Assembly: GCF_033095865.1 (NCBI RefSeq)
Contig: NZ_AP019365.1
Coordinates: 5,553,501-5,617,500, forward strand
Length of the DNA stretch: 64,000 nucleotides
Source: Pseudomonas sp. KU43P
GTDB taxonomy: Bacteria; Pseudomonadota; Gammaproteobacteria; Pseudomonadales; Pseudomonadaceae
Direction of reading: 5' to 3'
Numbering within the stretch: position 1 is the stretch's first letter; every line of letters starts with the position of its first letter. Shown one piece after another: positions 9,471 to 25,175 of the stretch. The notes under the pieces are model-generated. The model was not told where the DNA came from and did not search any database. It saw nothing but the letters and a program-made list of their open reading frames with translations. A program made the translations under genes and the position numbers.

Positions 9471-9503
9471 CCCTTTTTACCTGCCTCAGGTTTGGATGCC
9501 TCC

Positions 9504-11606
9504 ATGCTTGCCCCTTGCCGTATTTCACCCCTGACGCTCGGCCTCTCGCTGCTGTTCAGCGCCAGCCTGGCCAGCGCCGCCACCACGACCCTGCCGGAGC
9601 TGTCGGTTACCGCCGACAGCGAGCGCGAAGAAGACAACCCCCGGGTCAAGGAGGTCAGCACCGCCACCCGCACCTCTACGCCGGTGCGCTACGTACCCCA
9701 GGCCATCGACACGGTGAAGGCCGCCAACGTGCTGGACTACGGCAGCAACACGCTGGGCAAGGCGCTCGAAGGCATCCCCAACGTCAGCAGCGGCGCGGAC
9801 ACGCGCTTCGACAGCGTGCGTATTCGTGGTTTCGAGGCGAGCAACGATTTTTACCTGGACGGCATCCGCGACGACAGCCAGTACATTCGCGACCTGCACA
9901 ACATCGAACGGGTCGAAGTGCTCAAGGGGCCGGCAGCGGTGTTGTACGGCCGTGGCAGCCAGGGCGGCATCGTCAACCGGGTGAGCAAGGCGCCAGAGCA
10001 TGGCCGCCGCTCCTCCATCGAGGCCCAGGGCGGCAGCGAAGACCTGCGCAGCCTGTACGCCGACCTCAGCGCCGACCCCAGCGATACCGTGAGCCTGCGC
10101 CTGAACCTGGGCAACCAGGACAACAACAGCTTCCGCGATGGCGTCGACGGCAGCCGCCAGCTGTTCGCGCCGTCGATGAGCTGGCAGATCTCGCCTGACC
10201 TGAACTGGCTGGTGCAGTACGAATACAGCCGCTACAACCGTACCCCGGACCGTGGCATCCCCGGGGTCAATGGGCGCCCGGCGGATGTGAGCGGTAGCAC
10301 CACCTACGGCGATACCCAGCGCGACTACATCGACGATCGCGCGCAGTCGTTGCGCTCGCGCCTCAACTACCAGCTCAACGACACCTGGCAACTGCGCCAC
10401 ACCCTCGGCCTGTTCCAGCTCGACAGCGACTTCGACAACACCTACGCGACCGGCTACAACGCCAGCAACAACACGGTCACCCGCCAGCGCTGGCAACAGG
10501 ACCTGACCACCCGCAACCTGTTCAACAACCTCGAGGCCGAAGGCGATTTCGCCACCTGGGGCGTGGAACACACGCTGCTGGTAGGCCTGGAGTTCGGCCA
10601 CCAGCGCCGCGACCCGACGCTGTACACCGCTGCGCCGGTTTCGGCCGGCGGCAAGCCGGTGCCCGGCCTGGACCTGAACAACCCGAACCGCGACCTGCAG
10701 CACAACGGCAGGATGGTGGTATCGAGCAACAACCACACCGTGGTCGACAGCCGTGGCCTGTACCTGCAGGACCAGATCCGCCTGAACGATCAGTGGCAGA
10801 TCCTGGCTGGAGTGCGCTTCGACCAGTTCGAAGTGGAAACCACCAACAAGGTGCGCGACCTCTCCGAAAAGCAGGACAGCAACACCACCAGCCCGCGCCT
10901 GGGCGTGGTCTACACGCCGTGGCGCGACCATTCGTTCTACGCTTCGTGGAGCAAGACCTTCTCGCCGGTCGGCGGCGGCCTGATCGGCATCACCCCGGGC
11001 GCGCCCGGCAACACCAATGACACAAGCCCAGAGCTGACCCGGCAGAAAGAAATCGGGATGAAAAGCGACTGGCTCGACGAGCGCCTGACCACCACCCTGG
11101 CCATCTATGAGCTGGAGCTGTACAACCGCCGCACACGTGACCCGAACAACCCGGAAATCACCTTGATGAGCGGCCTGCAGCGCTCCCGCGGCGTGGAGCT
11201 GACCGCCACCGGCAACATCGTCGGCAACTGGTACGTGCGCGGCGGTATCGGCCTGCAGGACGCTACCATCGTAAAGGACAACAACGGCCTGGAAGGCAAC
11301 CGCATCAACGACGTGGCCAAGCGCAACGGCAGCCTGTTCGTGACCTGGAAACCGGAGCTGGGCTGGTATGCGGAAACCGGGTTGACGATGGTGGGCGAGC
11401 GTTATGCCGACAACCAGAACACCACGGTGTTGCCGGGTTATGGGCGTTGGGATGCGCTGGCTGGCTTCCGTACCCGGGAATGGGATGTGCGGGCGGCGCT
11501 GAGCAATATTGCCGACAAGACCTATTACAGCTCGGCGACCAGTGCGGCACAGATTCAGCCAGGGGATCCGCGGAGCCTGGTGGTGACGGGGACTTACAGC
11601 TTCTGA
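9504..11606 (+). CDS. TonB-dependent siderophore receptor
   Basis: This 700-aa outer-membrane receptor has a signal peptide (..LGLSLLFSASLASAA). A TonB-box region (TLPELSVTA) is followed by a plug with VRIRGFEASNDFYLDGIRDD and IERVEVLKGPAAVLYGRG (residues ~100-150), and then a 22-strand barrel ending ..VVTGTYSF with a terminal Phe. Sequence style points to ferric catecholate/hydroxamate (Fiu/FhuE-like) substrates; the exact ligand cannot be read. The start at 9504 gives a normal signal peptide; the TTG at 9492 is less likely. Upstream sequence holds a Fur-like box and a perfect palindrome. The last 29 codons, with the stop and the following half-REP, are repeated seven more times downstream. 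Confidence 0.92.
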   Translation: MLAPCRISPLTLGLSLLFSASLASAATTTLPELSVTADSEREEDNPRVKEVSTATRTSTPVRYVPQAIDTVKAANVLDYGSNTLGKALEGIPNVSSGADTRFDSVRIRGFEASNDFYLDGIRDDSQYIRDLHNIERVEVLKGPAAVLYGRGSQGGIVNRVSKAPEHGRRSSIEAQGGSEDLRSLYADLSADPSDTVSLRLNLGNQDNNSFRDGVDGSRQLFAPSMSWQISPDLNWLVQYEYSRYNRTPDRGIPGVNGRPADVSGSTTYGDTQRDYIDDRAQSLRSRLNYQLNDTWQLRHTLGLFQLDSDFDNTYATGYNASNNTVTRQRWQQDLTTRNLFNNLEAEGDFATWGVEHTLLVGLEFGHQRRDPTLYTAAPVSAGGKPVPGLDLNNPNRDLQHNGRMVVSSNNHTVVDSRGLYLQDQIRLNDQWQILAGVRFDQFEVETTNKVRDLSEKQDSNTTSPRLGVVYTPWRDHSFYASWSKTFSPVGGGLIGITPGAPGNTNDTSPELTRQKEIGMKSDWLDERLTTTLAIYELELYNRRTRDPNNPEITLMSGLQRSRGVELTATGNIVGNWYVRGGIGLQDATIVKDNNGLEGNRINDVAKRNGSLFVTWKPELGWYAETGLTMVGERYADNQNTTVLPGYGRWDALAGFRTREWDVRAALSNIADKTYYSSATSAAQIQPGDPRSLVVTGTYSF

Positions 11607-12806
11607 TGTTGTCTGCGCTGGCCCTATCGCCGGCAAGCCGGCTCCCACAGGTTTCAAGCCTTGCGCTGTTCCTGTGGGAGACCTATTACAGCTCGGCGAC
11701 CAGTGCGGCACAGATTCAGCCAGGGGATCCGCGTAGCCTGGTGGTGACGGGGACTTACAGCTTCTGATGTTGTCTGCGCTGGCCCTATCGCCGGCAAGCC
11801 GGCTCCCACAGGTTTCAAGCCTTGCGCTGTTCCTGTGGGAGACCTATTACAGCTCGGCGACCAGTGCGGCACAGATTCAGCCAGGGGATCCGCGTAGCCT
11901 GGTGGTGACGGGGACTTACAGCTTCTGATGTTGTCTGCGCTGGCCCTATCGCCGGCAAGCCGGCTCCCACAGATTTCAAGCCTTGCGCTGTTCCTGTGGG
12001 AGACCTATTACAGCTCGGCGACCAGTGCGGCACAGATTCAGCCAGGGGATCCGCGTAGCCTGGTGGTGACGGGGACTTACAGCTTCTGATGTTGTCTGCG
12101 CTGGCCCTATCGCCGGCAAGCCGGCTCCCACAGATTTCAAGCCTTGCGCTGTTCCTGTGGGAGACCTATTACAACTCGGCGACCAGTGCGGCACAGATTC
12201 AGCCAGGGGATCCGCGTAGCCTGGTGGTGACGGGGACTTACAGCTTCTGATGTTGTCTGCGCTGGCCCTATCGCCGGCAAGCCGGCTCCCACAGGTTTCA
12301 AGCCTTGCGCTGTTCCTGTGGGAGACCTATTACAACTCGGCGACCAGTGCGGCACAGATTCAGCCAGGGGATCCGCGTAGCCTGGTGGTGACGGGGGCTT
12401 ACAGCTTCTGATGTTGTCTGCGCTGGCCCTATCGCCGGCAAGCCGGCTCCCACAGGTTTCAAGCCTTGCGCTGTTCCTGTGGGAGACCTATTACAGCTCG
12501 GCGACCAGTGCGGCACAGATTCAGCCAGGGGATCCGCGTAGCCTGGTGGTGACGGGGACTTACAGCTTCTGATGTTGTCTGCGCTGGCCCTATCGCCGGC
12601 AAGCCGGCTCCCACAGATTTCAAGCCTTGCGCTGTTCCTGTGGGAGACCTATTACAACTCGGCGACCAGTGCGGCACAGATTCAGCCAGGAGATCCGCGT
12701 AGCCTGGTGGTGACGGGGACTTACAGCTTCTGATGTTGTCTGCGCTGGCCCTATCGCCGGCAAGCCGGCTCCCACAGGTTTCAAGCCTTGCGCTGCTCCA
12801 GTGGGA
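11519..12806 (+). repeat. Eight tandem 161-bp copies of the receptor 3' end plus half a REP pair
   Basis: Units begin at 11519, 11680, 11841, 12002, 12163, 12324, 12485 and 12646. Each holds the final codons ..TYYSSATSAAQIQPGDPRS..GTYSF, the stop, TGTTGTCTGCGCTGG, one full REP arm and the spacer up to the right arm's GTGGGAG. There the next unit is joined in place of the rest of the right arm. Only the last copy continues into a complete right arm. Copies differ at a few sites in a mosaic pattern: AGCTCGG/AACTCGG, CAGGTTTC/CAGATTTC, and CGCGGAGC in copy 1 only against CGCGTAGC elsewhere. Junction microhomology is AG. Copies 2-8 lack starts and are non-coding. Confidence 0.97.
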
Positions 12807-12830
12807 GCCGGCTTGCCGGCGATAGGGCCG
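12747..12830. repeat. Complete REP pair closing the tandem array
   Basis: The left arm CTATCGCCGGCAAGCCGGCT and right arm GTGGGAGCCGGCTTGCCGGC are both intact. This is the presumed ancestral arrangement before amplification. Confidence 0.9.
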
Positions 12831-12848
12831 CTACAGGCATTGCACAAA

Positions 12849-12880
12849 CAAAAACGCCACCGCATTCACGGTGGCGTCTT
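12849..12880 (-). terminator. Terminator of the 65-aa ORF
   Basis: The stem is ACGCCACCG / CGGTGGCGT with a 6-base loop. Read on the minus strand it is followed by TTTTTG, 28 bases past the stop of the small gene. Confidence 0.75.
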
Positions 12881-12907
12881 GCATTGGGGCGGGCTCCTGC
12901 CCTGATT

Positions 12908-13105
12908 TCAGTGCCACACACCCAGCAGTGCTTCCAGCTCCGCATCGCTGATCAGCCCCTGCGGATAGCGGCCGTCAAGCAGACGTCGTGGGTCGGTCGT
13001 CCTGACCCTTTTGCTTCCATGGTGCTTCAGCCACTGCGCCAGCATTCTGAGCGATTGGCGATTCACTGACGATGGGCGCAAAGCCGTCTCACTTGCTGCA
13101 TTCAT
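12908..13105 (-). CDS. Small uncharacterised protein
   Basis: This 65-aa basic protein is not recognised. It contains SLRMLAQWLKHHGSKRVRTT, then a short segment (RRLLDGRYPQGLISDAELEALLGVW) that could be two helices. A GGAG lies about 11 bases before the ATG at 13105, and a good terminator follows the stop, which together favour a real gene. It stands alone between the repeat array and the agmatine deiminase gene. Confidence 0.6.
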   Translation of the reverse strand: MNAASETALRPSSVNRQSLRMLAQWLKHHGSKRVRTTDPRRLLDGRYPQGLISDAELEALLGVWH

Positions 13106-13245
13106 GTCTACACGTACTCCCTGGGCCCGTGAGCGGCTAATTTACGTAGTGATTGTTACAAGACGGAGATCCGACGTGCTTCAGTAACTCCATGAAATCA
13201 ATACAAAACATATGCCATTTGCAGTGCCGCATATCGCCCGCCAAA

Positions 13246-13288: not shown

Positions 13289-14395
13289 TCAGCGCTTGAA
13301 CGGCGCCGGTTGCTGCTGGGTCAGGCAGTGGATGTTGCCACCGCCCAGCAACAGCTCGCGGCCAGGAATCATCACCACTTCGTGGTCCGGGAAGACCTTG
13401 GCCAGGATCGCTCTGGCCTGGGCATCTGCCGGGTCGTTGAAGCTCGGCGCGATGATGCCGCCGTTGACGATCAGGAAGTTCACGTAGGAGCCGGCCAGGC
13501 GCACCGACGGGTCGCGCTCCTGGCTTCCGGCAACGTGGTCGACGCCGGCGCACTCTTCTTCGGTAGCGAACAGCGGGCCTGGAATTGGCATCTTGTGCAC
13601 CACGAACTCGCGGCCTTTGGCGTCGCGGCTGTTTTTCAGCACGTCATAAGCCGCGTGGCAGCGTGCGTAGTTGGGGTCGTTGGAATCATCGGTCCAGGCC
13701 AGTAACACTTCGCCTGGGCTGACGTAACAGCAGAAGTTGTCGACGTGGCCATCGGTCTCGTCGTTGTACAGGCCGTCCGGCAGCCAGACGATGGTTTCCA
13801 CCGCCAGGTGCTCGCGCAGGATCTCTTCGATCTGCTCGCGGTTCAGGTGCGGGTTGCGGTTGCGGTTGAGCAGGCATTCTTCGGTGGTGATCAGGGTGCC
13901 TTCGCCGTCAACGTGGATCGAGCCGCCTTCAAGCACGAAGCCCTCGGTGTGGTAGCGCTGGCAGCGCTCCATTTCCATCACCTTGGCCGCCAGTTCCTCG
14001 TCGCGGTTCCACGGTGCGTAGAGGCCGCCATCGAAACCGCCCCAGGCATTGAAACCCCAGTCCACGCCGCGCACTTCGCCTGCGTCGTTGATCACGAAGG
14101 TCGGGCCGGTGTCGCGCACCCAGGCGTCGTCGTTGCTGATTTCCACCACGCGGATGTTCGGCAGGTCGAGCTGGCGACGGGCGTTTTCATACTGGCCGGC
14201 GGAAACGGCGACGGTTACCGGCTCGAAGCGGGCAATGGCCTTGGCCAGGGTCACGTGGGCAGCCTGGGCAGGCTTGCCACCCAGGCGCCAGTTGTCCGAA
14301 CGCTCGGGCCAGACCATCCAGACCTGGCTTTGCGGCGCCCATTCGGCGGGCATGTGGAAGCCGTCGGCGCGAGGCGTGGAGTTCAGGGTTTTCAT
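13289..14395 (-). CDS. aguA: Agmatine deiminase
   Basis: This 368-aa enzyme hydrolyses agmatine to N-carbamoylputrescine and ammonia in the arginine-decarboxylase route to putrescine. It shows the peptidyl-arginine-deiminase fold signatures [16 protein letters not shown] near the N-terminus, [13 protein letters not shown] (~residue 90), [13 protein letters not shown] (~155), [17 protein letters not shown] (~215) and the catalytic-cysteine motif [13 protein letters not shown] at the C-terminus (Cys ~357). The length is normal. A GAGG lies upstream of the ATG at 14395. No aguB (carbamoylputrescine amidase) is adjacent. The upstream minus-strand gene has its own terminator, so this gene is transcribed separately. 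Confidence 0.95.
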
Positions 14396-24984: not shown

Positions 24985-25175
24985 GGCCGCCATCGCCGGC
25001 AAGCCGGCTCCCACAGGTACAGCACAGAATCAGGGAACTGCGTAGTACCTGTGGGAGCCCACAGGTACAGCACAGAATCAGGGAACTGCGTAGTACCTGT
25101 GGGAGCCCACAGGTACAGCACAGGATCAGGGAACTGTGTAGTACCTGTGGGAGCCGGCTTGCCGGCGATGAAGCC
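24985..25175. repeat. REP pair with expanded spacer
   Basis: The left arm CATCGCCGGCAAGCCGGCTC and right arm GAGCCGGCTTGCCGGCGATG bracket a spacer amplified to three 48-bp units. Confidence 0.95.
25010..25153 (+). repeat. Three tandem 48-bp units inside a REP pair
   Basis: Units start at 25010, 25058 and 25106. Each runs from CCCACAGGTAC to GTACCTGTGGGAG, so its ends are themselves inverted repeats (the inner ends of the REP arms). Copies 1 and 2 are identical; copy 3 differs at two bases. Confidence 0.97.

Follow-up and report, generated by a model that had tools for sequence, protein, structure and literature searches.

The 3' end of a predicted siderophore receptor gene of Pseudomonas sp. 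KU43P is repeated in eight head-to-tail copies of a 161-bp unit, in which the gene tail and its stop are linked to one arm, and to the first bases of the other arm, of an inverted pair of REP elements. The joint between units lies at the foot of the REP hairpin, a single gene tail is present in close relatives, and the same genome carries four more arrays of the same build. The window analysed, 64,000 nucleotides in length, corresponds to C1:5553501-5617500 of a single-contig genome of 5,869,691 bases; positions not preceded by C1 or by a locus label refer to the window (Table 1).

The array at the end of the receptor gene

The last 87 nt of the receptor ORF form the coding part of unit 1. Each unit includes the last 28 sense codons of the receptor with TGA, a short intergenic piece, a complete REP in the reverse orientation (GCCGGCAAGCCGGCTCCCAC), a spacer and the sequence GTGGGAG, which represents the first seven bases of the second REP arm. 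The unit starts within the gene at ACCTATTAC, and between units GTGGG[AG] is directly followed by ACCTATTAC. The remainder of the second arm is found only 3' of unit 8, where GTGGGAG of the true right arm runs into CCGGCTTGCCGGC, the continuation of the arm being CCGGCTTGCCGGCGATAGGG.

The eightfold array reported in the initial annotation was recovered both by TRF (11518-12807, period 161, 8.0 copies, 98% matches) and by exact self-comparison, which gave 1290 bp matching at period 161, namely exactly 8 x 161 bp without indels plus the 2-bp AG microhomology. The AG can be assigned to either side of the joint, and the units accordingly occupy 11520-12807 or 11518-12805; the extent first given, 11519..12806, differs from these by a base. 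Self-comparison also reproduced the joint placed exactly at GTGGGAG of the right arm, with AG as microhomology. The unit had been described as the last 29 codons, the stop and a REP arm, and this description holds for gene end, stop and arm, the codons being 28 sense codons and the stop.

Table 1 Features of the window and gene-tail arrays elsewhere in the genome.
Feature	Position	Strand	Basis or content
Predicted TonB-dependent siderophore receptor, 704 aa (longest ORF)	9492..11606	+	TIGR01783, 339.9 bits; PF00593, PF07715
Tandem array, 8 x 161 bp	11520..12807	+	TRF, self-comparison
Unit 1, real gene tail	11520..11680	+	Unit alignment; the sole unit with CGG at unit codon 18
Units 2-7	11681..12646	+	Unit alignment; starts 11681, 11842, 12003, 12164, 12325, 12486
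Unit 8	12647..12807	+	Unit alignment; terminal CTCCAGTGGGAG (units 1-7: TTCCTGTGGGAG)
Right REP arm, single occurrence	12801..12827	+	Array joint just 3' of its GTGGGAG (12801-12807)
Complete REP pair (REPIN-like inverted repeat)	12747..12829	.	Unit 8 and right arm; 32-nt arms, 97% complementary
Terminator-like hairpin, T-rich tail	12851..12880	-	Terminator scan
Second window array, 48 bp x 3 (146 bp including 2-bp microhomology)	25010..25155	+	Loop between two REP arms; at the joint GTGGGAG is followed by CCCACAGG
Gene-tail array, 128 bp x 3.0	C1:4407286		59 nt of ORF ending LYLMGPDSTGVNGQAFNAQ
Gene-tail array, 199 bp x ~2	C1:1772109 (L236 1346-1830)		133 nt of ORF
Gene-tail array, 90 bp x 4.1	C1:4442952		29 nt of ORF
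Gene-tail array, 128 bp x 2.0	about C1:4837041		ORF ending GPVGYIDYPRL

The repeated element is a Pseudomonas REP, with a GTAG-type tag and a hairpin and with many dispersed tagged palindromes; exact copies of GTGGGAGCCGGCTTGCCGGC number 811 in the genome, compared with 0 for the reversed control. Two inverted REPs able to fold as one hairpin, as in a REPIN, occur in the array once, at its end. As single-stranded DNA this pair (12740-12835, - strand) folds with -49.1 kcal/mol and a z of -10.7, and strong folding is predicted, from the native sequence only, for the RNA of the array. The units do not encode a repeat protein; 161 is not a multiple of three, and no single reading frame runs through them.

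Downstream of the array, terminator-like sites of the + strand were located by scan at 12990-13008. The + strand tail of the 12851-12880 hairpin reads GTCTTGC, as against GTTTTTC or GTTTTGC in several of the relatives compared. The stretch 12900-13110, similar in the relatives compared, may on its - strand side code for a short protein convergent to the receptor. Further on, the first long ORF to match a protein family (PAD_porph, 13289-14395) lies on the strand opposite to the receptor.

Across the eight units, 7 of 161 columns vary. The coding changes are S>N in units 5, 6 and 8 and T>A in unit 6, together with two silent changes, in units 1 and 8 respectively; three variable columns are non-coding. 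Parsimony-informative variation is limited to two columns (10 and 131, 0-based), for which three of the four combinations are present. Duplications of one and of two units account for the unit order a a b b c c b c. Of the unequal exchange or conversion that the mosaic copies had been taken to imply, exchange is therefore plausible; gene conversion is possible and unnecessary, since such duplications suffice. The amino acid changes in the silent units look chance-like and neutral, with no apparent sign of constraint, and the proposal that the array serves as a recombination reservoir is not supported. An arm copied across the palindrome in units 1-7 (CCTGTGGGAG) was also considered, and set aside as it accounts for one of the two differences from unit 8.

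The comparison with relatives proposed in the initial annotation was carried out at the site 3' of the orthologous stop in 149 loci, the own locus excluded (29, a further 80 kept of 267, and 40 fetched by region). Comparison of the final 300 nt of the gene leaves 132 distinct sequences among them, of which three have less than 250 nt downstream. The 161-bp array was found in none of the 132, and the six close relatives inspected at this site have one gene tail and at most one hairpin pair. As no ortholog examined has a counterpart, the array arose by local amplification. The closest named relative, P. faucium (L079), whose receptor is 97% identical, carries a single tail with a single REP pair of the class found in the array, and its stretch 6027-6184 matches all eight units; this locus represents the state before duplication.

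A REP lies within 250 nt of the receptor stop in 58 of the 132 relatives and an inverted pair in 45, compared with 26 pairs in 879,553 bases elsewhere in the relatives' loci (coding DNA included) and none in shuffled tails. Thus, the end of this gene is a common REP site. Other arrays occupy it in two of the 132 relatives, and in none of the 40 loci fetched by region. In Pseudomonas sp. RIT-PI-q (L123, 6140-7193) an unrelated array of 133 bp x 7.9 contains a whole REP pair per unit, and in L066 an array of 112 bp x 2.1 stands behind the orthologous receptor gene; from edges read by hand, both include no more than two bases of the stop from the gene tail. Amplification per REP pair was not significantly in excess at the receptor locus relative to elsewhere (Fisher p = 0.53), on a rough input in which L066 was missed by the REP-pair finder and only L123 was counted among the 45. 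No second isolate of the source species was found among the genomes searched.

REP-linked arrays in the genome and their joints

Tandem units this large at a gene end had been regarded as unusual, which is true of the size, but TRF and direct-REP-pair patterns disclosed at least 13 REP-linked tandem arrays in this genome, five of them with gene tails, and REP clusters with flanking DNA are in the literature (see below). The periods are 42, 46, 48, 55, 57, 62, 62, 90, 118, 128, 128, 161 and 199; because the patterns recognise only exact REP cores at periods between about 40 and 216, 13 is a lower bound. In all five gene-tail arrays each unit contains gene tail, stop and left REP arm, and the right arm is single and lies past the last unit. 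The genes of the four besides the receptor are predicted, being ORFs of gene-like composition or length. At the locus of the 199-bp array (L236) one tail was present in all five relatives searched, one of which (L289) stops 34 nt past the gene. The two units of this array agree at every position for 175 nt, after which the loop of one is inverted relative to the other, with a reverse-complement score of 15 vs 1.

The 118-bp x 3 REP array (L012 11104-11459; G000:C1:1076104) terminates 24 nt short of the following ORF (11483) and may repeat a promoter region.

Joints were counted for the eight of 13 arrays with both edges unambiguous, in the own genome only. The 57-bp array, whose end is irregular, was left out, as were the 46-, 55-, 62- and 62-bp arrays, in which long homology within the palindromic core forms the joint; joints from other genomes (L245-L287) were excluded because the imperfect copies there defeat edge reading. 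Six of the eight joints, those of the five gene-tail arrays and of the 48-bp array of the window, have the right break between the REP arms or within the right arm. Four of these six allow a right break after GTGGGAG, 1 nt inside the core of the right REP, and the microhomology is AG (2 nt) in the receptor array, GGAG (4 nt) in the 199-bp array (L236_199), GGAG (4 nt) in one 128-bp array (L299_128b) and CC (2 nt) in the 48-bp array. Among the gene-tail arrays, three of five can thus be joined at the foot of the hairpin, as can the 48-bp array. The other 128-bp array (L234_128a) and the 90-bp array (L280_90) are joined at -16/-15 and -24/-18, that is 15-24 nt before the foot, and the remaining two of the eight, with periods of 118 and 42 bp, break elsewhere. 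By simulation, four of six joints at one position has a P of 0.00026 if the site is fixed and of 0.010 if any site is allowed, values that assume 60 equally likely positions and are post hoc, the array class having been defined after it was seen. A break inside the REP pair was dropped as evidence by itself, since, as estimated by hand, most units of 118-199 bp would be expected to have an edge within a pair of 82 bp.

The joint is not a signature of the genus, as GTGGGAGCCCACAGG occurs in only two of 199 genomes. A looser joint pattern matched 13 of 398 genomes, and among the stretches inspected by eye only those of the own genome and of one other (G025) were array-like, the others resembling coding DNA, chance matches or other REP-like hairpins. 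The G025 array, of a different REP class, also has GTGGGAG followed by C at its joint, and was found by searching for that joint.

Formation of the arrays

The preferred explanation, to which we attach about an even probability, is slippage or template switching at the REP hairpin with 2-4 nt of microhomology, followed by unequal exchange. A new DNA strand would stop at the foot of the right REP hairpin, just past its GTGGGAG; the stalled 3' end, ...GGAG, would slip back, pair with AG or GGAG in the upstream gene and recopy the stretch, and unequal exchange between units would then extend the array to eight copies. A strand ending at the hairpin foot and pairing again upstream would give these joints and the included gene tail, and the duplication would be nearly neutral because gene, stop and REP arm each stay intact. 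The array, its joint, the single-copy state of the relatives and the four further arrays are observed; stall, slippage, growth step and the timing of that step are inferred. The strong single-stranded fold of the REP pair counts in favour of slippage, and the inverted loop in the units of the 199-bp array suggests strand switching within the hairpin. Replication direction also agrees in most cases: dnaA lies at base 1358, and the sign of the GC skew changes near 2.9 Mb (positive skew below 2.7 Mb, in 19 of 19 stretches; negative skew above 3.2 Mb, in 17 of 18), so that the + strand is on the lagging side for four of the five gene-tail arrays, located in the left chromosome arm. Against slippage stand the 199-bp array, for which the + strand is leading (1.77 Mb, right arm), the two gene-tail joints off the foot, and the different breaks of the 118- and 42-bp arrays. 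Slippage is nevertheless held at this level because it also covers the arrays joined by core homology and the joints lacking CT.

A less probable but serious alternative is that a REP transposase (RAYT, TnpA-REP) cuts a single strand at a CT 5' and a CT 3' of a REP and joins the piece alongside. Two Y1_Tnp genes pass the Pfam cut-off in the genome, and the one at C1:169063 has REPs of the array class on both flanks and is a putative cognate RAYT. The available part of the enzymatic study reports that TnpA-REP cleaves at CT 5' or 3' of a REP, and that a GTGG tag, the form present in the receptor array, shifted the Marinomonas enzyme to CC (PMC8266576). CT is possible on both sides in five of the eight joints, compared with 2.2 expected (P (>=5) = 0.023), and where one strand choice exists, in four joints, the CT strand read by hand is the strand that holds the REP of the unit in REP form. 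If CC is allowed as well, an addition made post hoc, seven of eight joints comply, against 4.0 expected (P (>=7) = 0.010). Nonetheless, CT cannot stand on both sides of the joint in the 48-bp array, L234_128a or L280_90, the 46-, 55-, 62- and 62-bp arrays with their joints within the palindromic core require no cutter, and a strand ending in GTGGGAG automatically places CT opposite, so that three of the five CT joints are not independent of slippage. In addition, the E. coli and S. maltophilia enzymes are described in that part of the study as acting on REP and not on inverted REP (PMC8266576). As slippage and transposase predict the same three gene-tail joints, the sequence alone does not separate them. 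More tentatively still, the transposase itself may build the arrays, by taking a single strand from a CT beside a REP arm to a CT in the neighbouring gene and pasting it in tandem. On that view REP pairs, besides being passive repeats or mobile hairpins, would actively take up and multiply gene ends, with five such ends in this genome.

The first duplication is unlikely to derive from breakage at the REP, by gyrase or by fork collapse between convergent genes, followed by end joining or by repair that depends on RecA. In enteric bacteria, REP elements are bound by gyrase and mark the join points of duplications, and the PAD_porph ORF lies on the strand opposite to the receptor, but breakage gives no reason to expect a single base common to the joints at the hairpin foot. 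It is more doubtful that the array is maintained, either because eight REP hairpins alter stability or termination of the receptor mRNA or because the units are spare gene ends. The inverted REP pairs past the stop in 45 of 132 relatives and the unrelated 133-bp array of RIT-PI-q are in line with such a role, whereas the changes in the silent units look neutral and arrays occupy the site in only two of the 132 relatives. An assembly artefact is highly improbable: the array was judged from the assembly and not from raw reads, but its unit variants are ordered, the genome is one contig, and parallel arrays exist at other loci and in other species.

Published REP clusters and occurrence in the genus

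Shyamala, Schneider and Ames reportedly described in 1990 tandem duplications with REPs at the join points, attributed to REP-to-REP recombination over large segments. A REP at the join point is shared with the arrays described here, in which the foot of a REP is instead joined to a gene and the units are of 90-199 bp.

In P. fluorescens SBW25, the consulted part of the 2011 paper describes 16 ordered tandem REPIN clusters, the largest with four REPINs and a REP over more than 700 bp (Bertels & Rainey 2011, PMC3116915). These clusters also repeat REP with flanking DNA in tandem, but their unit is a whole REPIN with its flanks, whereas every unit of the receptor array combines a single arm and 7 nt of its partner with gene tail and intergenic DNA, and the array does not fall in that class; its joint is at the foot of the second arm, coding sequence is included and eight copies extend over 1.29 kb. 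On how clusters form, that part of the paper infers only 'a second mechanism' (PMC3116915). Large clusters of GTAG-family REPs, in tandem with flanks, have been published as well (Di Nocera et al. 2013, PMC3733652), and the portion consulted does not describe joint position or gene-end capture. Similarly, cleavage and strand transfer by TnpA-REP act on REP near CT, which fits several joints here, and array formation is not described in the portion of that work consulted (PMC8266576). No description of half-pair, gene-tail REP arrays was found in the literature searched, which comprised parts of papers; as far as that literature goes, units that couple half a REP pair to a gene end appear to be new, as do the repeated occurrence of such units within a single genome and their common joint at the hairpin foot. 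That joints recur at a single base of this foot, and have short matches in the gene, leads to separable predictions for slippage and for a transposase cut, and the arrays show how bacterial genes can gain extra copies of their 3' ends with the intact gene kept.

Direct REP pairs at 100-160 bp spacing are present in 12 of 76 genomes, own included, all 12 from Pseudomonas, although not all such pairs are arrays. In another Pseudomonas (G034, L246/L265), a 136-bp REP-pair array of more than 13 copies was observed at C1:4417130-4418909. Candidates for gene-tail arrays in other genomes, selected by the ORF filter, are L248, L250, L252, L254, L255 and L262.
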